From contig NZ_CP007445.1 in assembly GCF_000599985.1 (NCBI RefSeq), positions 3,075,413-3,139,412 on the forward strand: a DNA stretch of 64,000 nt. Reading direction: 5' to 3'. The notes beneath the pieces were generated by a model. The model saw only the letters and a program-made list of their open reading frames with translations. It did no database searches and was not told the origin of the DNA. Shown piece by piece: positions 338 to 62,130 of this stretch; within the stretch, counting starts at the first letter, position 1, and each line of letters begins with the position of its first letter. The position numbers were made by a program, and so were the translations under genes. The stretch is from Gilliamella apicola (GTDB lineage: Bacteria; Pseudomonadota; Gammaproteobacteria; Enterobacterales; Orbaceae).

Positions 338-401
338 TCCATTTAATCTCAAAAAAATATATTAAGCCTATCCATAAAATAACGTTCTTTTATAAATCTT
401 A

Positions 402-447
402 TTTGTAAAAAAATTTCAGGTTATATATACGTTTCAGTATAAAAATT
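402..447 (+). repeat. Single copy of the dispersed TTTGTAAAAA...TTCAG motif
   Basis: The stretch starts TTTGTAAAAAAATTTCAGG, followed by TATATACGTTTCAG and TATAAAAATT. By eye it aligns with the core of the 129-bp units at 24347-24861 and with both copies at 51351 and 51894. It lies between the PTS terminator and the tusC stop codon and just overlaps the tusC end. Its function is unknown. Similarity between A/T-rich stretches can be accidental, but the order of the blocks is the same. Confidence 0.5.
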
Positions 448-12528: not shown

Positions 12529-12554
12529 CCGCCGATATATATCGGCGGTTTTTT
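12529..12554 (+). terminator. Rho-independent terminator of rraA
   Basis: A perfect 20-base palindrome beginning CCGCCGATAT is followed directly by six T. It lies 13 bases after the rraA stop and separates it from convergent dprA. Confidence 0.9.
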
Positions 12555-12601
12555 ACTGAAACATAGCCATTACCTCAAACTTTTTGACAACAAATTACCT
12601 A

Positions 12602-22879: not shown

Positions 22880-23068
22880 ATTTTTTCCCTTTTCCAGTTA
22901 AATAAACATTATGTAATTTTAATGATGTTAGCATAATGGTAATTAAACCATAAAATAAAATTTTGTTAAAATATTCAGTCTAATAAATCGGTAAAATAAA
23001 GAATAAGTGTAATCTAATAAGTTTAATAAAATGTTATCATTGGTTATTTTTTATAACTAACTCCAAAA

Positions 23069-24340
23069 ATGAAAAAAATATTTAAGGTTTGTTTATTCGC
23101 TATCGTGCAACTTATTTTGTTCTCGTTACCACTCATTGCTATTTACTCTTTTTTCAAAGGATGTAGGCAAAAAGTGAGTTTAAAAGATAACTTGAGGCAT
23201 ATCGGTCAGCACTATTTTCTAGGATTTCTATTTTCTAAACCTAACGTAAATAGTTGCATTATGATTCATGCTATTTCATTAGGTGAAGCAGACGCTGCAA
23301 TTAACTTAATTAGCTTTTTTCAACCACAAATTAGACAAAAAATTATTCTTACCGTCATAACAATTCAGGCTTATAAAAAATTAACTAACCAACCAAATGA
23401 TATAACAATAGTATATTTTCCTTTCGATTCTTTAGTTCATCAAAGTTTATTTATCCACCATTTCAATATTAGAAAAGCAATAATTATTGAGCATGATTTT
23501 TGGCCTAATTTTCTTGCTACAATGGATCTACTTAACCGGGAAATCATTTTACTCAACGGGCATTTTTCAGATAAAACCATTAATCGTTTAAACAATCGCT
23601 ATTATCAAGCGTTACTGTTTTCTCCGATAAAAAAAGTGTTTGTACAAACCGCCGAACTAAAAACAAAAATGCTACCTGTAATGCCTAATGTTTCTATTTC
23701 GGTAACACCAAGTTATAAACTCCCTTTAAATACCACAGTCTTAGATATTAAAAATATAAACAGTGAAAGAAAAATAATTACTCTTTCAAATTTCCATCCT
23801 GAAGAACTTAATACAGTATCTGAGCTGTTAGCTAAATTGGTTAAATTGGATTATAAAATTATACTTGTTCCTAGACATATACATCTATTTGATAATTTAA
23901 TAAAAAAATGGGAAGAAGTGTATCAAAATCGCTTTGCTGTTATAACGCAATGGAACAATGCTGACAATATCACTGCGGAGATTACTTTTGTAAAAAGTTA
24001 TGGTGTGCTCAGTAAAATTTATTCATTATCTCATGCAACCATCGTTTTTGGCTCTTTTGATCCGAGTTTGAAAGGACACAGTTTATTTGAACCCATTTTA
24101 TATGGTTCTATGGTTTATTACGGTTCTTATTTTTCTTCTCAACAATATATGGATGAATTTTTACGTCGTATCATTACCAATATAAAACATGATACAGACT
24201 CGATAGAACAACAGATAAAACATCTATCAACACATGACAGAATTGATATCTACAACAAATTTATGGTGAATATCGAAAATGAGAAACACATTTTAATTAA
24301 TCATTTTAAAGAAATAGAGCAATGGATTAAAAATAATTAA
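23069..24340 (+). CDS. Divergent WaaA/KdtA-like (GT30) Kdo transferase homologue
   Basis: The 423 residues begin with a membrane anchor (about 5-27), then follow the order of WaaA blocks in weakened form: AISLGEADA (usually SVGE with the catalytic Glu), YFPFDS, IEHDFWPNFLA (usually ETELWPN), LLNGHFSDK, VFVQTAELK, SNFHPEEL (usually THPGE), LVPRHIHL, and GSFDPSLKGHSLFEPI (usually GGSLvphGGHNplEP). WaaA adds Kdo to lipid IVA at the inner membrane. The altered donor-site motif means this could be a diverged true WaaA or a paralogue with a different acceptor. A/T content is high, like the flanking repeats. Confidence 0.65.
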   Translation: MKKIFKVCLFAIVQLILFSLPLIAIYSFFKGCRQKVSLKDNLRHIGQHYFLGFLFSKPNVNSCIMIHAISLGEADAAINLISFFQPQIRQKIILTVITIQAYKKLTNQPNDITIVYFPFDSLVHQSLFIHHFNIRKAIIIEHDFWPNFLATMDLLNREIILLNGHFSDKTINRLNNRYYQALLFSPIKKVFVQTAELKTKMLPVMPNVSISVTPSYKLPLNTTVLDIKNINSERKIITLSNFHPEELNTVSELLAKLVKLDYKIILVPRHIHLFDNLIKKWEEVYQNRFAVITQWNNADNITAEITFVKSYGVLSKIYSLSHATIVFGSFDPSLKGHSLFEPILYGSMVYYGSYFSSQQYMDEFLRRIITNIKHDTDSIEQQIKHLSTHDRIDIYNKFMVNIENEKHILINHFKEIEQWIKNN

Positions 24341-24346
24341 AGTGAT

Positions 24347-24930
24347 TTTGTAAAAATTATTCAGGAGTGTATATCATTTCAGCATTTAAATTGCTTTTAT
24401 TCGTAAATAATGCCTTGTTAATCGTTTTAATTACACCAAACCTAAATTAATCAGTAAACTTATTTAAGCAGAATATTTGTAAAAATTATTCAGATATGTA
24501 TATCATTTCAGCATATAAATTGCTTTTATTCATAAATAATGCCTTGTTAATCGTTTTAATCACATCAAACCTAAACTAATCAGTGAACTTATTTAAGCAG
24601 AATTTTTGTAAAAATTATTCATGAGTGTATATCATTTCAGCATATAAATTGCTTTTATTCGTAAATAAAGCCTAATTAATCATTCTAATTACACCAAACC
24701 TAAATTAATCAGTAAACTTATTTAAGCAGAATATTTGTAAAAATTATTCAGATATGTATATCATTTCAGCATATAAATTGCTTTTATTCGTAAATAAAGC
24801 CTAATTAATCATTCTAATTACACCAAACCTAAATTAATCGGTAAACTTATTTAAGTAGCATTTTGTAAAAAATATCCACAAGCAGATTGCATTTAGTATA
24901 TAAATCACGCTTATTTGTTAAGAAATGTGT
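24347..24930 (+). repeat. Four tandem 129-bp repeats plus a degenerate fifth
   Basis: Units begin with TTTGTAAAAATTATTCA at 24347, 24476, 24605 and 24734, exactly 129 bases apart; a fifth, degraded unit starts at 24862 and fades by about 24930. Units differ by scattered substitutions only, with no variable spacers. 129 is 43 codons, and units 1 and 2 share one open frame ended by a single TAA per unit. The array fills the gap between the WaaA-like gene and initiator tRNA-Met. The same core motif appears at 402-447 and in the 51-52 kb duplication. Confidence 0.93.
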
Positions 24931-25002
24931 AAAAATGATACGTTCAGTAAAGAATACTATTGCTTTATTATTTTATTACTATAATATAGCTCACCTCTTT
25001 GA

Positions 25003-25079
<77 letters not shown>

Positions 25080-25119
25080 ATTCCTCCAAACCCTATTCTA
25101 AATTTTCTTAATGATAAAG

Positions 25120-25995
25120 CTATTTTGATTTTGGAACAGCAAGTAATGTTGATACTGCTTCACTAATTCTTCGAGCGATATAGCTATTATTCATGGTATA
25201 TAAATGGATACCGTCAACATTTTGCGAAACTAGGTCAACAATCTGATCGATAGCATAAGCAATACCTGCATCACGGAATGCATCTGGATGATGTTCATAT
25301 TTTTCCATCATTTGCTTAAATTTCTTAGGTAGATTAACACCACACATTGAAACCATACGTTCAATTTGGTTTTTATTCGTTACTGGCATAATTCCCGCTT
25401 CAATGGGTACATTAATGCCCATATCACGCGCTTTATCTAAAAAGGCATAAAAATAGTCATTATCAAAAAACAATTGGGAAATCAGCTGATCGGTACCTGC
25501 GTTCACTTTTTCTTTCAAATGAATTAAATCTTGTTTAATGGTTGTCGCTTCAAGGTGTCCTTCAGGATAACATGCACCGATTACGTTGAAATCGCCATTT
25601 TCTTTAATAAAAGAGACAAGTTCACTTGCAAAACGAAAATCGTCTTTAGGTTTTACGTTTGGATTGATATCACCTCGTAACGCAAGCACATTATCAATAC
25701 CTGCACATTTAAGATCGTGAAGGATTTTTTTCATCTCGGTTTTATCAAAATTGATACCCGGTAAATGAGCGACACTTTCGATACCATAAGTATGCTTAAC
25801 TGAGTGAGCAATATCGATAGTAGTTTGGCCATTCAAGCTACCACCTGCACCATAGGTAACACTAATAAAATCAGGTTTAAAATAACCGAGTTCGCGCAAA
25901 GTACTGTAAATTGTTTCTAAAGGTGATGTTTTTTTAGGAGGAAAAACCTCAAAGGAGAACACCGTTTTTTGATTAAAAAGTAGATTTGTTTTCAT
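25120..25995 (-). CDS. metF: Methylenetetrahydrofolate reductase MetF (Firmicutes-like sequence)
   Basis: MetF reduces 5,10-methylene-THF to 5-methyl-THF using FAD and NADH, supplying the methyl group used by MetE. The roughly 291 residues show FSFEVFPPKKTSP, ISVTYGAGG, VLALRGD, ACYPEGH, ISQLFFDNDYFY and IEAGIMPVTN. These wordings, including the ASQLFFDN-type and GINVPIEAGIMPVTNKNQIERM blocks, are those I recall from Clostridia and streptococci rather than from enterobacterial MetF. I prefer ATG 25995 because GGA lies eight bases before it; ATG 26001 is possible. metE is upstream on the same strand. Confidence 0.93.
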   Translation of the reverse strand: MKTNLLFNQKTVFSFEVFPPKKTSPLETIYSTLRELGYFKPDFISVTYGAGGSLNGQTTIDIAHSVKHTYGIESVAHLPGINFDKTEMKKILHDLKCAGIDNVLALRGDINPNVKPKDDFRFASELVSFIKENGDFNVIGACYPEGHLEATTIKQDLIHLKEKVNAGTDQLISQLFFDNDYFYAFLDKARDMGINVPIEAGIMPVTNKNQIERMVSMCGVNLPKKFKQMMEKYEHHPDAFRDAGIAYAIDQIVDLVSQNVDGIHLYTMNNSYIARRISEAVSTLLAVPKSK

Positions 25996-26107: not shown

Positions 26108-28381
26108 TTATTTGAGTGTTTTTCTTACTTCTAATGTGGCTTGAACTAAGTGTTGTAAGCTTTCAACCACCTCTTTTTCACCACGCGTTTTTAAACCACA
26201 ATCTGGATTAATCCATAATTTTTGTTCATCGATCTTCGCAAGCAATTTCTCGATAGTACCTTTAATTTCAGCTACAGGCGGTACACGCGGTGAATGGATA
26301 TCATAAACACCCGGTCCCACTTCTGTTTTAAAATTATTGGCTTTAAGCACATCAATCAACTGTAAATTAGAACGTGATGCTTCAAACGAGATAACATCCG
26401 CATCCATTGCATCAATGTCTTTGATGATGTCAGCAAATTCGCTATAACACATATGAGTATGAATTTGCGTATCTGCTTGAACTTTACTATGTACTAATCT
26501 GAACGCTGGAATAGCCCAATCTAGATATTCGCTGTTCCAATCTGCCTTACGCAATGGTAATTTTTCTTTAAGTGCTGCTTCATCAATCTGAATGACTTTA
26601 ATACCAGCCGCTTCAAGATCGAGCACCTCATCACCAATAGCTAAACCAATTTGGAATACAGATTCTTTTTGTGAAATGTCTTCACGTGGGAATGACCAGT
26701 TAAGAATCGTTACTGGGCCTGTCAACATGCCTTTAACAGGTTTATCTGTTAAACTTTGTGCATATTTTGAATATTCAACCGTAATTGGTTTAGAACGTGA
26801 AATATCACCCCATACAATTGGTGGCTTAACGCAACGAGTACCATAAGATTGCACCCATGCTTTTTCAGTAAAGACAAAACCATTTAAGCTTTCACCAAAA
26901 TATTCAACCATATCATTTCGTTCAAATTCACCATGCACCAACACATCAATACCGATCTCTTCTTGTAATTTGATACATTCGGCAATTTTTTTCTTATTGA
27001 ATTCTGTGTATTCATTCAAACAAATTTCACCTTTTTTGAATTTAGCACGATTTAAGCGCACATCAGGTGTTTGTGGGAATGAACCAATCGTTGTAGTTGG
27101 TAACAATGGTAAATTAAATGCTTTTTTCTGCTCTGCTTCACGTACTGAAAATTCAGGTAAACGAGTAAAGTCAGATGCACTTAATGCCGCAACTTTTTGA
27201 CGAACATCTTGATTTGCCCCTTCACGTTCACGAGTAAACAGGGTTTGGTTAGCTTTATAAGTCTCACTATTTTCTGGGTTAGCTTCATTAAATAACTGAC
27301 CAAGCTCTGCTAATTCTTGCAGTTTTTCTTGTGCAAACGCAAAGTAAGCACGTTGTTGAATAGTTAATTTAGTCTCATTTTGTAATGTATAAGGTACATG
27401 CAACAATGAACACGAAGTATTAATTACAACTTTAGCTGCTTTTTGCTTAATTTTCCCAAGTAATGCTAAAGTTTTTTGGTAGTTATTTTTCCAAATATTT
27501 TTACCATTCACTACGCCAGCAAATAATACTTTATCCGAAGGGAAACCATTATTTTCAAGCAATGCTAATGACTGTTTACCTTCAACAAAATCAAGACCAA
27601 TACCATCGAACGGCAGAGCCACTAACTCTTTGTAACAGTCACGTACATCACCAAAATAGGTTTGTAGAACCACTTTAGTGGTACCTTTAACGGATAAGAT
27701 TGCTTGATAGAGCTCTGTAAATAAAGCGATATCTTCTTTATTAAGATCAGTGACTAAAATTGGCTCATCAATTTGAATCCAATCAGCGCCAAGTGTTGTG
27801 AATTTTTGAATAATTTCTTGGTAAGCTTTAATAATATCAGCTTTAAAGTCAACAAACTGTTTATTACCTAAATATTGTGCTAATTTGAAAAACGTTAATG
27901 GACCAACAACAACAGGTTTAGTTTGTATACCTAACGCTTTGGCCTCTTGATATTCGTCAAACGGTTTGCTACCAGCTACTTTGATCTGCACTGAATCTTC
28001 TATTTCAGGTACTAAATAATGATAATTGGTGTTAAACCATTTTTTCATTGCTAGCGCACGCACATCACCTTTTTCACCTTGATAGCCACGAGCCATAGCA
28101 AAATAACGATCAAGTTCTGGTAATCCCAAATCTTGGTAACGTTTAGGAATAACATTAAGTAAGCAAGCGGTATCTAATACTGCATCATAAAATGAAAAGT
28201 CATTAGACGAAATAAATGCAATTTTTTGCGAAGCTTGTTGTTGTAAATGCTCGGCACGTAATGCTTTAGCTTCACTTAATAATTCGGTTTGGGTTTTATT
28301 ACCTTTAAAATAGGCTTCGGTTGCAAATTTCAATTCACGAAGTTTACCAACACGAGGATATCCAATAACTGCTGTATTCAT
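26108..28381 (-). CDS. metE: Cobalamin-independent methionine synthase
   Basis: MetE transfers the methyl group of 5-methyl-THF-polyglutamate to homocysteine with zinc. The 757 residues form two barrels: the N-terminal half ([14 protein letters not shown] at the start) and the catalytic C-terminal half with TTIGSFPQT near residue 430, [15 protein letters not shown], and the zinc ligands in [10 protein letters not shown] and the NPDCGLKTR block near 726. Full length. It lies directly upstream of metF on the same strand, a folate-methyl pathway pair, next to the initiator tRNA. Confidence 0.97.
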
Positions 28382-38852: not shown

Positions 38853-39857
38853 ATGGCTTCACTTAAGGATGTTGCAAAATTGGCATCAGTGTCATTGATG
38901 ACAGTTTCTCGTGCAATTAATAATCCTGAAAAATTAAATAAACAGACATATCAACGCGTAAAACAAGCCATTGAGCAACTTAATTATGTCCCTGATCTCT
39001 CAGCCAGAAAAATTCGTGGTGATAACTCAGGCCCTTGTGCTATTGGCGTTTTAGCTTTAGAAACAGCAATGACACCATTTTCCGTAGAATTATTACAAGC
39101 TATAGAAAAAACTGCTCAAAATCATGGTTGGAATACCTTTATTGTTAATTTATTTGATGATAAAGAGCCTGATCATGCAATTAATACTCTTTTATCCTAT
39201 CGTCCTAACGGCATTATTTACACCACGATGGGACTTAGAAAAGTTGATCTTCCCGAAAAGTTACTTGGCAAAAATATTGTTTTGGCAAATTGTGTTACTG
39301 ATAGTGAAAAGCTGGCTTGCTATATTCCCGATGACTACACAGGTCAATATCAAGCTATGCAACAGGTGATACAAAAAGGTTATAAAAAACCGTTATGTAT
39401 CTATTTATCAGAAAAAACATTAGCAGGTAAAACCCGTCGTAAGGGTGCAGAACAAGCTTGGCTTGATGCTGGTAAAAATTTGAAAAAAATGGCCAGTTAT
39501 CATATGCCGATATTGGAAAATAATATCGCCCAAGAATATATGACGACAATTGATATATTGAAACAACATTGTAATAACACACCGGATTTTGATGTATTAA
39601 TTTGTGGTAATGATCGCATTGCTTTTGTTGCTTACCAATACTTACTTGGTCAAGGATTTCATATACCCAAAGATGTGGCTATATTAGGTTATGACAACAT
39701 GGTCGGTACTGGTGAACTATTTTTTCCACCGCTTACGACAGTTCAATTACCGCATTATGAAATAGGCGAGCAAGCAGCGTTACATATCATCAATGGTCAA
39801 ACAGAAACAGAAATCAGCTATGTGGCTTCGCCTTACTTAGAAAGGAACTCTTTGTAA
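38853..39857 (+). CDS. cscR: LacI-family sucrose operon repressor CscR
   Basis: The N-terminal helix-turn-helix ASLKDVAKLASVSLMTVSRAI and hinge YVPDLSARKIR are followed by a periplasmic-binding-protein-like sensor domain, with GIIYTTMGLR, ENIVLANCV-like and CGNDRIAFVAYQ blocks. The 334 residues match E. coli CscR closely throughout. It should bind the TTAACGTTAA palindromes before cscB and cscA and release them when an inducer from sucrose (such as fructose) is present. It is divergent from cscB and convergent with cscA. Confidence 0.92.
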   Translation: MASLKDVAKLASVSLMTVSRAINNPEKLNKQTYQRVKQAIEQLNYVPDLSARKIRGDNSGPCAIGVLALETAMTPFSVELLQAIEKTAQNHGWNTFIVNLFDDKEPDHAINTLLSYRPNGIIYTTMGLRKVDLPEKLLGKNIVLANCVTDSEKLACYIPDDYTGQYQAMQQVIQKGYKKPLCIYLSEKTLAGKTRRKGAEQAWLDAGKNLKKMASYHMPILENNIAQEYMTTIDILKQHCNNTPDFDVLICGNDRIAFVAYQYLLGQGFHIPKDVAILGYDNMVGTGELFFPPLTTVQLPHYEIGEQAALHIINGQTETEISYVASPYLERNSL

Positions 39858-39864
39858 TAAACAT

Positions 39865-40426
39865 AAATGAATTGACCGCTATCAAGCGGTCAATTTAAAT
39901 ATAAATTAAGCGTAAATAGATTTTAGTTGCCAACTGTCAAGTCGAGTAATTTTGGCACTACCATTTTCCGCAAATAAATTTATTTGTCGTTCTGCTGGTA
40001 ATTTAGGATAAATACCACTAGAAAGACTATACAAATCATCATTAACAAATATAAATGAATTGACCGCTATCAAGCGGTCAATTTAAATATAAATTAAGCA
40101 TAAATAGATTTTAGTTGCCAACTGTCAAGTCGAGTAATTTTGGCACTACCATTTTCCGCAAATAAATTTATTTGTCGTTCTGCTGGTAACTTAGGATAGA
40201 TACCATTAGAAAGACTATACAAATCATCATTAACAAATATAAATGAATTGACCGCTATCAAGCGGTCAATTTAAATATAAATTAAGCATAAATGGATTTT
40301 AGTTGCCAACTGTCAAGTCGAGTAATTTTGGCACTACCATTTTCCGCAAATAAATTTATTTGTCGTTCTGCTGGTAATTTAGGATAGATACGACTAGAAA
40401 GACTATACAAATCATCATTAACAAAT
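39865..40426. repeat. Three tandem 188-bp copies of the cscA 3' end and its terminator
   Basis: Units start at 39865, 40053 and 40241, exactly 188 bases apart. Each holds a TTGACCGCT-atca-AGCGGTCAA hairpin (39872, 40060, 40248) and the last 48 codons of cscA including the stop. The third copy is the genuine end of the gene; the other two are extra. They are almost identical. The hairpins can end both cscR and cscA transcription, so the duplication has tripled the terminator. Confidence 0.95.
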
Positions 40427-41751
40427 ACTTCAACCGATGATGCGTCAATATAAACATGTAAGGATAGTTTTTTCGTTTTTGGTAGTGGTACACTACGGTA
40501 GCCTTTTAACTCAAGTCCAGAAAGGCTACGATCAAGAATAATACGTTTTGATTGCAAATCCACATATAACAATGTTGCTTGTTCACCATTTTTGGTTGCC
40601 GATAGCTGCAAACCAAATCGTTCTGCGGTACTTTGTGATAAATCAAACTCAACATTGAGTTCACAACTAATTGATTTAATATTGGTATTTTTCAGTTCAT
40701 TATTAAGGATTATTTCACTTAATGATTGTCGTTGTTCACGCAATGCTGTGAGCTCTTTAATTGGGCGATTACGAACATTATTGTTGTTATCCAATATTAA
40801 TTCACGAGGAAGTGTAAATGAACCCATCCATTTATCTTGTTTACTTGGCATACTCGATTCCCACATATCCATCCAAGCAAACACAATGCGTCGTCCATCA
40901 GCAGCTTGAAACGATTGCGGTGCATAAAAGTCATGACCAAAATCCATTTCTTGAAATGGTTTGATTATTGAAAACTTTTTACCCGGTTGCCAATCACCAA
41001 CAATATAACCAGATTGAAAACGATTTCGATTCTGATAGCCTTTAGCTTTCATACCTTGTGGTGAAAACATTAAAATCCATTTATCACCAAGCTTGAAAAA
41101 GTCAGGGCATTCAAGCATATAAACATTAGGATCGATATCACTTACAACAACATGGTCGAATGTCCAACTTTTAAAATCTTTTGAATGATAAAGTAAAATT
41201 TGTCCAACATCATTTGTATCACGTTGTCCAACAACCATCCACCATGTATCATCCTGTAGCCAAACCTTAGGATCTCGAAAATGCATAATACCGCTTTCTG
41301 GCACAAGTATGGTTCCATGTTTTTTAAAATGAATACCATCTTTACTGGTTGCTAAGCATTGAGATTGAGAAATTTTTTCATCATTACCCTGCCCTGCTAA
41401 CCAAATATGACCAGTATAGATCAAGTATAATTCACCATTATTATCGACAGCCGAACCAGAAAAACAGCCATTTTTATCCCAATCATCACCTGGTGCGATA
41501 GCAATAGGTAGCCTTCGCCATGTCACAAGATCATCGCTAACAGCATGACCCCAATGCATGGGTCCCCAATTTTCATCATAAGGATGATGTTGGTAAAAAG
41601 CGTGATATTGACCTTTAAAATAGATCAAACCATTGGGATCATTCATCCAGCCAGATTGTGGGGCTAAATGAAAATGTGGATAATATTGTTTGTTCATCAC
41701 TTTCTCTAGTTTTTTCACAGCTAAATTAGCTTTATCAACGGCTGTAGACAT
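40282..41751 (-). CDS. cscA: Sucrose hydrolase (invertase) CscA, GH32
   Basis: CscA splits sucrose to glucose and fructose in the cytoplasm. The 489 residues hold the GH32 five-bladed propeller with the nucleophile motif WMNDPNG (35-41), FSGSA, the RDP motif (159-161) and the acid/base ECPD (214-217), then a C-terminal beta-sandwich with SSVEVFVNDD. It aligns along its length with E. coli CscA, including the leader before the catalytic domain. Four CscR-type palindromes and a CRP site control the locus; its 3' end is repeated downstream. Confidence 0.94.
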   Translation of the reverse strand: MSTAVDKANLAVKKLEKVMNKQYYPHFHLAPQSGWMNDPNGLIYFKGQYHAFYQHHPYDENWGPMHWGHAVSDDLVTWRRLPIAIAPGDDWDKNGCFSGSAVDNNGELYLIYTGHIWLAGQGNDEKISQSQCLATSKDGIHFKKHGTILVPESGIMHFRDPKVWLQDDTWWMVVGQRDTNDVGQILLYHSKDFKSWTFDHVVVSDIDPNVYMLECPDFFKLGDKWILMFSPQGMKAKGYQNRNRFQSGYIVGDWQPGKKFSIIKPFQEMDFGHDFYAPQSFQAADGRRIVFAWMDMWESSMPSKQDKWMGSFTLPRELILDNNNNVRNRPIKELTALREQRQSLSEIILNNELKNTNIKSISCELNVEFDLSQSTAERFGLQLSATKNGEQATLLYVDLQSKRIILDRSLSGLELKGYRSVPLPKTKKLSLHVYIDASSVEVFVNDDLYSLSSRIYPKLPAERQINLFAENGSAKITRLDSWQLKSIYA

Positions 41752-51291: not shown

Positions 51292-51834
51292 CCATTAATT
51301 AACCTTTTGTAAGGTTCAAAATTTAATTATACAAAAAAGAAATTGGAAAATTTTGTAAAAAATATTCAGATGTCTATATCATTTCAATTTTTATTTATGT
51401 TTTAATTCAATATTAAAAAGGATAAATTATTTATCTGTTATAAATTAAGATTAAAATAAAAGTATAAAATATCAATGGTATTAACTTTAAAAAGATTCCT
51501 TATTGCTAACCTAAATCATAATTTTTAATAAAGTAATCTTTCAAATATTAACAAGATATTTATTATCCTTTCATTATAAGTTGAATGATAACTCAGTATT
51601 CTCTGTTATTTCGATTTTCTTGCAAAGATAATTTATTTGCTATCATCAAATGACACAATGGTAGCAGGTAATTTGCATAACGGAAATCTAGTTGAATTTA
51701 TCTAGATAGGTTGAATTTAAGTAAGTGAGAAAAAGTAAGTATATATGAAAATAAGGATTAAAAATTTATAGAAATACAAATTAGCATCATAAAAAAGGAC
51801 TTATTAAAGCCCTTTTTTAAATAATAATCCTTGT
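51292..51834. repeat. 543-bp tandem duplication, copy A
   Basis: The first of two nearly identical 543-bp units in the rpsB-dacA gap. It carries the TTTTGTAAAAAATATTCAG core at 51351 that is shared with the 24.3 kb array, many short A/T-rich blocks, and ends in a hairpin (51791-51818) with T residues on the plus strand. No protein-coding frame of useful length is seen on either strand. Confidence 0.93.
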
Positions 51835-52345
51835 CATTAATTAAACTTTTATAAGGTTCAAAATTTAATTGTATAAAAAAAGAAATTGGAAAATTTTGTA
51901 AAAAATATTCAGATATCTATATCATTTAAATTTTTATTTATGTTTTAATTCAATATTAAAAAGGATAAATTATTTATCTGTTATAAATTAAGATTAAAAT
52001 AAAAGTATAAAATATCAATGGTATTAACTTTAAAAAGATTCCTTATTGCTAACCTAAATCATAATTTTTAATAAAGTAATCTTTCAAATATTAACAAGAT
52101 ATTTATTATCCTTTCATTATAAGTTGAACGATAACTCAGTATTTTCTGTTATTACGATTTTCTTGCAAAGATAATTTATTTGCTATCATCAAGTGACACA
52201 ATGGTAGCAGGTAATTTGCATAACGGAAATCTAGCTGAATTTATCTAGATAGGTTGAATTTAAGTAAGTGAGAAAAAGTAAGTATACATGGAATTATGTG
52301 ATTAAAAATTCATTAAAAGGGCTTTAATAAACCCTTTTAACAGCT
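51835..52345. repeat. 543-bp tandem duplication, copy B
   Basis: Second unit, offset 542-543 bases from copy A with scattered substitutions and one extra A. It shows the same motif at 51894, and ends in the dacA-side hairpin 52313-52340 (TTAAAAGGG and CCCTTTTAA). Both copies hold ATAACGGAAATCTAG and TTGAATTTAAGTAAGTGAG segments in the same order. It ends 20 bases before the dacA stop. Confidence 0.92.
52313..52340 (-). terminator. Terminator of dacA
   Basis: TTAAAAGGG and CCCTTTTAA enclose a ten-base loop 25 bases after the dacA stop in the minus direction, followed by T-rich sequence. It also closes copy B of the tandem duplication. Confidence 0.65.
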
Positions 52346-52364: not shown

Positions 52365-53546
52365 TTAACCAAATAGTTTATTGAACTGAAGAACAATCCA
52401 ATCACAAATTGTGCCAAAAAATCCGCTTTCTTGAACATCTTGTAAAGTGACTAATGATTGTTCATTAATTACTTTGCCATCTAATAAAAATTGTATTTTA
52501 CCTACGCTGGTACCTTTAGCGATTGGTGCATAAATATAATTATCAATAGTATATTGTACTTGTACATCAGCAGCGCGTCCTTTTGGTACAGAAACATAAG
52601 CGCCCTCAAGTGATCCTAATGGAACTTTATTTTGATCACCATACCAAATTGTTTGATTGACTAATGCACTATCTGCTTTAACAGGATTAGCCGTTTCAAA
52701 AAAGCGAAATCCCCATACTAATAATTTTTTACTCTCTTCTTCACGACCTTTAAAAGTTCGGCCGCCTAATACCGCTGAGATCAAACGGGTATTTCCATCT
52801 ACAGCAGAGGCAACTAAATTATAACCTGCCGCATTAGTATGTCCTGTTTTAATCCCATCGACATTTAATGTCGTATCCCAAAGTAAACCATTACGATTTA
52901 ATTGAGGTTTAGAAAGATTATAAGTAAATTCTTTTTCTTTATAGATAGCATATTCATTTGGAAGATCACGAATTAGTGCTCGGCCTAAAAATGCCATATC
53001 TTTAGCGGTTGTATATTGTCCTGGCGCATCAAGCCCATGTACTGTTTCAAAATGCGTATGTTCTAAACCAATCTTTTTAGCATATTCATTCATTAAATTA
53101 ACAAATGCACCTTGACTACCTGCAACATGTTCAGCCATAGCAATACAGGCATCATTACCTGATTGGATGATAATGCCTTTATTTAAATTAGCAACTGAAA
53201 CGGTTTTACCCACTTCTAAAAACATGAGTGATGACCCTTTAAGTACAGGATTACCCGTTGCCCAAGCATCTTTGCTTACAACAACCATATCATCATTTTT
53301 TATACGACCTGATTGCAATGCTTGACCGATAACGTAACTGGTCATCATTTTAGTTAAACTGGCAGGATCACGTTGTTGTTCCGCATTATATTGCGCTAAA
53401 ATTTCACCTGATTTGGCATCAATTAAAATATATGACTCTGCATCTAATTGTGGAATAGCAGGAATAGGAAAAGCCATTTCAGCTGACGCAGTTGAACAAA
53501 TCGCGAATGCTAAAAAAGCGAAAGATAGTTTAAATTTCTTTTTCAT
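52365..53546 (-). CDS. dacA: D-alanyl-D-alanine carboxypeptidase (PBP5)
   Basis: PBP5 trims the terminal D-Ala from pentapeptides in peptidoglycan. The 393 residues have a signal peptide (1-22, cut after SASA-type sequence), the penicillin-binding motifs SLTK (63-66), SGN (129-131) and KTG (233-235), a C-terminal beta domain and an amphipathic membrane-anchor helix at the end ([12 protein letters not shown]). rlpA, which lies between rodA and dacA in E. coli, is missing. Confidence 0.96.
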
Positions 53547-60208: not shown

Positions 60209-61486
60209 ATGCCCAAAACACACAGTCCAACTAAACGCCTATTAATTAAAGGTATCATTGCGACATGTTTATTATCTGTCACTCGTGTTGGCTTTGCTGC
60301 TGCATTAGCTAAAGTAGTTGCTGTACGTGTTTGGCCTTCATCTACCTATACAAGAATCACAATAGAGACAAATACACATCTAAAATATAAATGTTCTTTA
60401 CTAAACAATCCAAAACGACTTGCTATTGATATCAATGATATTAATTTAGATGCGACCTTAAAAAAAATATCATCAAAAGTATTAAGCCGCGATCCTTATA
60501 TTAAATCGATAAATGTTGTTCAGCTAAATAGCAAAACAGTAAGAGTAATGGTTGATTTAAAACAGGATATTAAACCAAATACTTTTACACTTCCACCGAT
60601 TGAAAAATATAAGAATCGTTTAGTTATTGATCTTTATCCATCTATAGTAGCTTCAACTGAAGATGATGATCCTTTACTTACTCTATTAGAAGAGTATAAA
60701 AATGGCGAGATTATTAACAAACAACCTGAAATAAAAGTAGATAAAGATAAAAATAAAGGTAAAGATACCCCCGGGCAGAAGAAAAACACACCAAATAAAA
60801 ATTCACCTATAGTAGTTGTGCTTGATCCAGGTCATGGAGGTGAAGATCCTGGAGCTATTGGTTTAAAAAATACACGTGAAAAAGATATCGTATTGCAAAT
60901 AGCTCGACGTACTTATGATCTACTTAAGAAAGAACCCAATATAAAAGTTTATATGACTCGTAATGAAGATGTCTTTATACCTTTAAATGTACGAGTGCAG
61001 AAAGCTCGTACTTTACAAGCGGATCTTTTTATTTCCATTCATGCTGACGCCTTTATTGATCGAACTGTAAAAGGATCAACTGTTTTTGCCCTATCAACTA
61101 AAGGCGCAAGTAGTTCAGCTGCTAGTTATCTGGCACAAACGCAGAATGAAGCCGATCAAATAGGTGGAGTAAGTCGCAGTGGCGATAAATATTTAGATAA
61201 CACTATTTTAGATTTAGTACAAAAAACTACGCTTACCAATGGGGTAATTTTGGGGAGTTCTATTTTGAATCGCATGAAAGGTGTCAATAAATTGCATAAA
61301 CCATCAATTGAAAAAGCCGGTTTTGCGGTATTAAAAGCGCCTGATATTCCATCTGTTTTAGTTGAAACAGGCTTTATTAGCAATGCCGATGAAGAAAAAA
61401 AATTAAATACAGCGGCATTCCAGATCCAAATATCTACTGCTATTGTTAATGGTATTAAAGATTACCTGAAAAAACGTAAAAAATAA
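60209..61486 (+). CDS. amiC: N-acetylmuramoyl-L-alanine amidase AmiC
   Basis: AmiC cleaves the peptide from the sugar chain of peptidoglycan during daughter-cell separation and is directed to the septum by its AMIN domain. The 425 residues have a signal region with TKRLLIKG, an AMIN domain (about 35-150), a linker rich in K, and the zinc amidase domain with DPGHGGEDPGAIG, the metal histidines and VETGFISN with the catalytic Glu. The Tat-type twin arginine of E. coli AmiC is Lys-Arg here. Confidence 0.93.
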   Translation: MPKTHSPTKRLLIKGIIATCLLSVTRVGFAAALAKVVAVRVWPSSTYTRITIETNTHLKYKCSLLNNPKRLAIDINDINLDATLKKISSKVLSRDPYIKSINVVQLNSKTVRVMVDLKQDIKPNTFTLPPIEKYKNRLVIDLYPSIVASTEDDDPLLTLLEEYKNGEIINKQPEIKVDKDKNKGKDTPGQKKNTPNKNSPIVVVLDPGHGGEDPGAIGLKNTREKDIVLQIARRTYDLLKKEPNIKVYMTRNEDVFIPLNVRVQKARTLQADLFISIHADAFIDRTVKGSTVFALSTKGASSSAASYLAQTQNEADQIGGVSRSGDKYLDNTILDLVQKTTLTNGVILGSSILNRMKGVNKLHKPSIEKAGFAVLKAPDIPSVLVETGFISNADEEKKLNTAAFQIQISTAIVNGIKDYLKKRKK

Positions 61487-61530
61487 GTTTGTTAAGAAGT
61501 TTCAGGTAAACTATATGTTTGAATATAAAA

Positions 61531-62130
61531 CTATTGAATAATAACTAAACTTCTCTCGGCATCTAATTGTGGAACGATGAGTTTAATATATTGTTTAAGT
61601 GTAAAACCGACAGGAATAGCATCAATATCACTGCCTTTTAGGGCATAAAAAGCGCCTTGTTGATTAGGCAAATGCTTACACCAATTAAGCATATCTTGCA
61701 AAGAAGCAAAAGCACGACTAATAACACCATCAAATTTTTTATCGGTATACTCTTCAATCCTGCTTTGTACTGGATTGATATTGGTAAGTTTTAATTCAAA
61801 TTGTACCTGTTTTAAAAAACGAATACGTTTGCCTAAACTATCAACCAGATCAAATTGCTTATCAGGATTAATAATAGCTAATGGAACGCCTGGTAGACCA
61901 GGACCTGTACCCACATCGATAAAAGATTGACCCATTAAATAAGGCGACACAACTAAGCTATCCATAATATGTTTAATGAGCATTTCATTTGGATCGCGCA
62001 CCGCAGTTAAGTTATAAGCCTTATTCCATTTATTAAGCATTTCAACATAGTTAACCAGCTGATCAATTTGTAGATCAGAGATCGAAAGATCCGTTTGATC
62101 AATAAGATTAATGAGTTTCTTTTTTAACAT
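61531..62130 (-). CDS. rsmG: 16S rRNA m7G527 methyltransferase RsmG
   Basis: RsmG methylates G527 of 16S rRNA using S-adenosylmethionine. The 199 residues show the [23 protein letters not shown] opening block, the SAM motif [17 protein letters not shown] and the [12 protein letters not shown] core. It overlaps mnmG by 23 bases, the conserved gidAB pair. Confidence 0.95.

Follow-up and report, generated by a model that had tools for sequence, protein, structure and literature searches.

Dispersed repeats in bacterial genomes are usually explained by REP-RAYT systems or by remnants of insertion sequences. Another point of reference is CENP-B, in which the DNA-binding part of a domesticated transposase recognises a short box that is arrayed in tandem; CENP-B is eukaryotic and belongs to a different protein family, and serves here as an analogy only. 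As described in part in two reports (PMC3686654, PMC8266576), REP sequences are imperfect palindromes that form a hairpin and are tied to RAYT, a transposase-derived protein. The repeats analysed in the present work were found in the final 64 kb of a single-contig 3.14 Mb Gilliamella genome (the whole 64 kb stretch is termed the window, and its source, G000, the home genome). They resemble REP/TnpA-REP (RAYT) in being dispersed, intergenic, present in many copies, clustered in places and tied to a domesticated transposase-derived protein whose gene is flanked by repeats. In contrast to REPs, the Gilliamella sites lack a hairpin and carry directly repeated half-sites, and while RAYT is a Y1 (HUH) nuclease, the protein associated with the Gilliamella sites is of the zinc ribbon/helix-turn-helix (HTH) type; REP membership fails on the hairpin. 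A likeness to IS1595 elements is provided by Zn_ribbon_IS1595, for which one 256-aa protein (that of G002) scores above the Pfam cut-off, whereas the Gilliamella proteins scanned gave no match to DDE_Tnp_IS1595, and IS1595 membership fails on this catalytic domain; as to the ends of such an element, a 248-aa gene is bracketed by direct repeats and no empty site was resolved. Like MITEs, the repeats are short, non-coding and multi-copy, and in one genome (G016) some units have about 20 bp in common with the beginning of the unit that carries the gene; unlike MITEs, most copies stand alone or as direct repeats, with few inverted pairs and no target duplication found, and MITE membership fails on the inverted ends. 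No description of this repeat or of its protein was recognised among the papers listed by searches of a mostly open-access literature collection, and the statement in the initial annotation that no named element matches still holds as far as a name is concerned.

The evidence points to selected putative binding sites of a domesticated-transposase protein rather than to inert repeats. The reading that we favour, with a probability of roughly 0.6, is that two families of dispersed intergenic sites would be read by IS1595-type zinc ribbon and HTH proteins devoid of a catalytic domain, with selection acting on binding.

The 129 bp repeat units with a shared core, from which the initial annotation started, were recovered. 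The tandem array at 24347–24875 (+) comprises 4.1 units of 129 bp, each consisting of a core and a 94 bp spacer, with type I cores at 24347–24381, 24476–24510, 24605–24639 and 24734–24768 (all +). The first core lies 6 bp past the stop of a 423-aa ORF, and the array ends in a weak remnant of a fifth (24860–24875, +; onset at about 24862 or 24860), of which the left half only is left (9 bits, E 0.13). The orthologous array in the close relative G002 has three cores. Two further type I cores, at 51352–51386 and 51895–51929 (both +), are the first and second members of a 543 bp direct duplication, represented by a single copy in G002, and both fall within one 1.35 kb gap; they had been placed at 51351 and 51894, so that their presence stands and their starts are corrected. 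The copy reported at 402 is also a real repeat, but a member of another family, type II, which is the larger of the two: it spans 401–444 (+) and ends 1 bp short of the 3′ end of the ORF at 446–799 (−). Two more type II sites had been overlooked, one at 12549–12590 (−), between convergent ORFs, and one at 61487–61530 (+), which fills the gap between the convergent ORFs 60209–61486 (+) and 61531–62130 (−). The copy at 402 scores 43.5 bits and these two sites score 40.4 and 39.4 bits, respectively, compared with 18.8–27.3 bits on the same scale for the type I cores in the window. What had been taken for one family is therefore a genuine dispersed repeat whose copies split into two. A doubtful relative at 22961 is unsupported, as it scores 6.6 bits (E 0.7). 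The second motif proposed for the unit, TATATCATTTCAGCATATAAATT, is conserved across type I loci up to TTTCA, the rest being locus-specific spacer.

The abundance of the repeat exceeds chance both in the window and genome-wide. An 18-mer, allowed up to three mismatches, has nine matches in the window, where shuffled sequence gives 0.66 on average and none of 100 shuffles reaches nine. In the home genome the 35 bp type I core gives 39 matches (up to three mismatches) and type II gives 80, with zero for the reversed pattern in both cases, and a joint profile yields 141 matches. Two other features of the window were recorded: three 188 bp tandem units with 97% match at 39855–40427, which extend into the 3′ end of the ORF at 40282–41751, and a metE-like gene (named by eye) at 26108–28381, the best matches listed for which, at about 66%, come from Firmicutes such as Clostridia and Paenibacillus. 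This gene may have been acquired by horizontal transfer, a suggestion qualified by the possible absence of near relatives among the matches listed.

Logos built from fetched home-genome loci define type I as TTTGTAAAAAWWATTCAGGAGTCTATAYCRTTTCA, of about 35 bp (38 copies), and type II as TTTGTMAAAAAGTTTSAGRTTAACTATACGTTTCAGTATAAAA, of about 43 bp (56 copies). They stand out as two sharp blocks, with little signal in the flanks; in type II the half-sites are GTTTCAG (or GTTTGAG) at columns 11–17 and GTTTCAG at columns 29–35, forming a direct repeat 18 bp apart. The sites are probably protein-binding sites. Promoter hexamers within the core were considered as well, and were dropped because the flank is not conserved. 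Copies occur either solo or in direct tandem arrays in which each unit is a core plus a spacer; at five home-genome loci the unit length is 129, about 211, 226, about 362 and 543 bp, respectively. A longer direct duplication, of 2.4 kb, was observed in G002 (L134, G002:C1:624101-626513), where it takes in an ORF (526 or 510 aa) and has one core of type I per copy. An Rfam scan of 23900–25200 (E up to 1) matched the tRNA at 25003 alone. Three cores, covering both types, fold no better than their shuffles (z 0.55, 0.71 and 0.58), and one array unit (z 1.67) is, like the cores, less stable than the shuffle mean. These values bear on the idea of REP-like hairpin repeats moved by a RAYT nuclease: the intergenic and dispersed distribution, the arrays and the gene flanked by repeats would all suit it, but with neither type folding better than shuffles and with a zinc ribbon/HTH protein as the associated partner, this origin is highly improbable.

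The repeat is real and is confined to one genus. The joint profile finds at least one match in 34 of 35 Gilliamella genomes and at least 46 sites in 20 of them (in these per-genome counts a value of 143 means at least 143), and between zero and two matches in each of nine genomes from four other genera of the family. The description of the repeat as a lineage-specific dispersed element is thus upheld, its copies being abundant in one genus only and far above the reversed-pattern controls.

The candidate reader of the type II sites is a 256-aa protein detected at E below 1e-90 in 24 of the 35 Gilliamella genomes, the gene of which adjoins a hemB-like gene (named by eye) in nine of 12 loci seen. 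Its alignment reveals two zinc-ribbon/HTH modules in tandem. In the G002 protein two stretches match Zn_ribbon_IS1595 (PF12760, 27.3 bits versus a cut-off of 25.4), while in two other 256-aa proteins PF12760 stays below the cut-off, at 25.0 and 15.9 bits. DDE_Tnp_IS1595 matched none of the 256-aa and 248-aa proteins scanned, and the DDE domain of IS1595 is found in one of the 35 Gilliamella genomes, with stops inside. The predicted structure of the 256-aa protein is of high confidence (pLDDT 92.3), and fold and sequence searches of the PDB returned no match at E ≤ 0.001. Homologues of the gene bear public names such as 'IS1 family transposase', 'transposase-like' and 'IS1595 family transposase', and labels of this kind may mislead on its function. 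Twenty upstream regions were fetched, one of them without a located start, and in 16 of the remaining 19 a type II-like site was seen by eye about 50–90 bp upstream of the start of the gene, next to a promoter-like TGATAATATTT. The protein would read type II sites through its two tandem modules and, by way of the site near the promoter, may control its own gene. Distant homologues in G011 and G004 (L162 and L167) are preceded, ahead of the start, by a similar motif that is C-rich (about CCCCTACCCATTTCAATCAAAA), perhaps a third type of site.

The type II-like site near the promoter of the 256-aa gene in 16 of 19 loci could also be taken to mean that the sites are ordinary operators, that is, promoter elements of a single regulon under the 256-aa protein. 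Some support comes from nine type II sites located 85–125 bp before same-strand starts, compared with 3.3 expected (P 0.0015), in an interval chosen after viewing the data. Type I sites, on the other hand, do not cluster in this interval (one versus 0.8 expected), and the overall placement shows no preference for a class of gap: the 99 sites counted in fetched loci (up to four mismatches) comprise 55 in tandem gaps, 21 in convergent gaps, 19 in divergent gaps and four inside called ORFs, which roughly follows the share of each class among the gap bases of these loci (56% tandem, 17% convergent and 27% divergent), so that convergent gaps hold a fifth of the sites and divergent gaps are not preferred. 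A regulon of this kind is improbable as an account of the sites. The four sites inside ORFs, together with the position of the cores at 51352 and 51895 in a 1.35 kb gap, also contradict the earlier generalization that all copies lie just beyond gene ends, although some type II sites do adjoin stop codons, as at 61487–61530. A strand bias towards a replication origin, the position of which is uncertain, was not significant (P 0.08 and 0.47).

Genomes in which the 256-aa gene is missing or broken mostly have few sites. The median number of sites is 99.5 in 24 genomes with an intact 256-aa gene and three in nine genomes in which it is absent (p 2.7e-4, kinship ignored), a comparison that excludes G004, with a 41% homologue and no sites, and G046. 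Restricting it to near-complete genomes gives medians of 103.5 (22 with the gene) and three (six without; p 5.7e-4, kinship ignored), where the gene-less genomes are not independent cases, since five of the six near-complete ones form one clade. G008, with 22 sites, and G046 are cases separate from this clade; in G046 the gene is broken and 28 sites are found, versus 119–139 in G047, G009 and G019. G013 has kept the gene and has 19 sites, and G049 (67% complete) has the gene and seven sites. The gene is intact in G012 and G048, yet these genomes have four and two sites, respectively, and their diverged operator motif is present in one copy each; the prediction that it would be dispersed failed, which counts against the expectation that dispersed sites follow the operator. 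The converse case is G014, with 88 sites and no 256-aa gene, in an assembly that is 74% complete with 5% contamination; in a single-gene tree it is placed next to G006, which points to an assembly of mixed origin. More generally, the gene content and site numbers of the G014 and G049 drafts are at odds with their place in that tree, and both may be mixed.

The type I sites are associated with a paralogue of 248 aa. In G009 its ORF sits between two directly repeated type I cores, and a search of 24 Gilliamella genomes found relatives at E below 1e-70 in 13, where the gene contexts vary and type I sites usually bracket the gene. The protein has a zinc ribbon and a homeodomain-like HTH, with Pfam scores below the cut-offs (PF12760, 13.7 bits), and would read the type I sites that bracket its own gene. 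Directly before its start, a type I-like site with at most two mismatches over 32 bp is present in eight of 12 species, and this site is degenerate in the home genome, G002, G006 and G023 (7–10 mismatches in 32, with 10 in the home genome). Eleven residues of the protein are changed in the home genome only and are invariant in 12 other copies; among them, positions 62, 63, 65, 72 and 73 lie within or beside the first HTH and position 196 is in the recognition helix of the second. Given the changes in the home-genome sites described below, the protein and type I site may have changed together in this lineage, a pattern that is no more than suggestive because it concerns one lineage; in G002 the protein has six private residues, about three of them in HTH parts, and the sites are unchanged. 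Among the matches listed, type I sites occur in genomes in which no intact 248-aa gene was found (11 in G005, two in G021, one in G022 and one in G018, G005 and G018 being incomplete), and G006 and G023 have the gene and no type I match.

Most of the sites examined occupy the same loci in two species, the home species and that of G002. A long match to a fetched home-genome site locus was obtained for 18 of 22 fetched G002 type I loci, which indicates little recent movement between the two genomes. Fifteen loci gave aligned core pairs, these being retained only if both copies had at most five mismatches and scored over the cut, and three of the 18 locus pairs gave none; across the retained pairs the flanks are 15.3% diverged and all 35 core columns differ at 59 of 664 positions. 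For type II, nine of 11 G002 loci (L308–L318) aligned to a fetched home-genome locus, L316 and L317 being the exceptions; L216/L016 yielded no paired type II copies and L318/L236 may be paralogous. Type II sites diverge less than the sequence around them: among 11 paired copies from 10 loci, 16 of 473 site positions differ, versus 286 of 3173 in the flanks, in loci that were fetched because they bear sites, so that the comparison favours conservation. In the less variable columns, picked from the home genome's own logo, the difference drops to four of 374 (Fisher p 4e-10 against the flanks).

The changes at the type I sites are directional. Of the 19 paired copies, 15 (at 12 of the 15 loci) have T in place of C at position 27 in the home species, with none reversed, and position 29 from G to A in eight of the 11 pairs with G, again with none reversed; these directional changes are independent of how pairs and columns were selected. 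Among the genomes seen, T27 is the rule in the home genome only (35 of 38 type I copies): it is found in one of 27 type I sites among the matches listed for G002, and all 134 matches from G005, G007, G014 and G016, which were searched after T27 had been noticed, have C27. Other species have their own versions of the site; many copies in G016, for instance, have T20 and G34, and 11 of 20 copies in G007 have T15. One-way changes are also seen in type II, in which column 15 changes from C to G, and column 18 from G to A, in four of 11 pairs each.

Inert remnants would not be expected to change in parallel at fixed positions, and this bears on an alternative in which the repeats are selfish mobile DNA. 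The type I units would then be non-autonomous derivatives of an element composed of a core, the 248-aa gene and a second core, with directly repeated ends; some recombination or transposition activity would drive both dispersal and array growth, and solo cores would be its remains. This alternative is strong for the manner in which units spread. Indeed, besides the 248-aa gene lying between directly repeated cores in several gene contexts across species, spacers link loci: by single linkage, one spacer family joins 12 of 14 fetched loci in G016 (best pairs at about 69–79% identity) and another joins all 10 fetched loci in G015, while the cores remain nearly identical. In G016, moreover, the stretch of about 20 bp that precedes some cores matches the one ahead of the core of the gene itself (E 1.5e-5 at best and 0.002–0.009 in most cases). 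The vgrG-like regions of the home genome can be read in the same way: two type I cores (G000:C1:1466461 and 1476582; L275) lie as direct repeats on either side of some 10.1 kb in which a vgrG-like locus is found, and in four of six comparisons with L017 the homology of duplicated vgrG-like regions ends no more than about 6 bp from the core end. Seven vgrG-like loci (L272–L278) have about 3.3 kb in common, with homology often stopping near the outer end of a type I core, and six of these loci also have a weak type II site, in inverted orientation, about 167–173 bp inward of it. Type I cores as the ends of a vgrG transposon were considered and rejected; from its translation, judged by eye, the repeated upstream gene looks like a T6SS vgrG paralogue, and the shared 3.3 kb therefore mostly reflects paralogues. 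As a full account, selfish mobility is rather unlikely, in view of the little recent movement seen in the G002 type I loci, the absence of a catalytic domain from the proteins scanned and the failure to resolve a clean empty site or a target duplication. In the gap behind the gene at 52365, alignment fails beyond the closest species and no clean empty site was resolved; another set of loci points to decayed rather than missing sites, with no target duplication resolved.

Selection on binding and a selfish origin of the units can both hold together. According to the favoured reading, sites read by the zinc-ribbon/HTH proteins would persist because they are bound, and would on rare occasions spread, a core with its spacer being the unit that is multiplied in tandem and that arrives at new loci. 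Their role may lie in marking the chromosome or nucleoid, in setting transcription boundaries or in mere self-maintenance as in REP-RAYT, and our guess favours chromosome marking with autoregulation. More tentatively, the genus may have put the DNA-binding half of an IS1595-type transposase to use in genome-wide marking, in which many non-palindromic, head-to-tail sites per genome would be read by a nuclease-free double zinc-ribbon/HTH protein, with species-specific dialects of the site that change with the protein and satellite-like core-plus-spacer arrays.

If this is true, Gilliamella would possess a REP-RAYT-like or CENP-B-like pairing that arose from a different protein and operates without cutting activity. 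It would be unusual for a genome to be labelled in this way, through scattered marks read by a tamed transposase that has lost its cutting part. With many sites changed alike in one lineage, the system would offer a natural case of co-evolution between a protein and its scattered sites, and also of the spread of short repeats without a transposase of their own.
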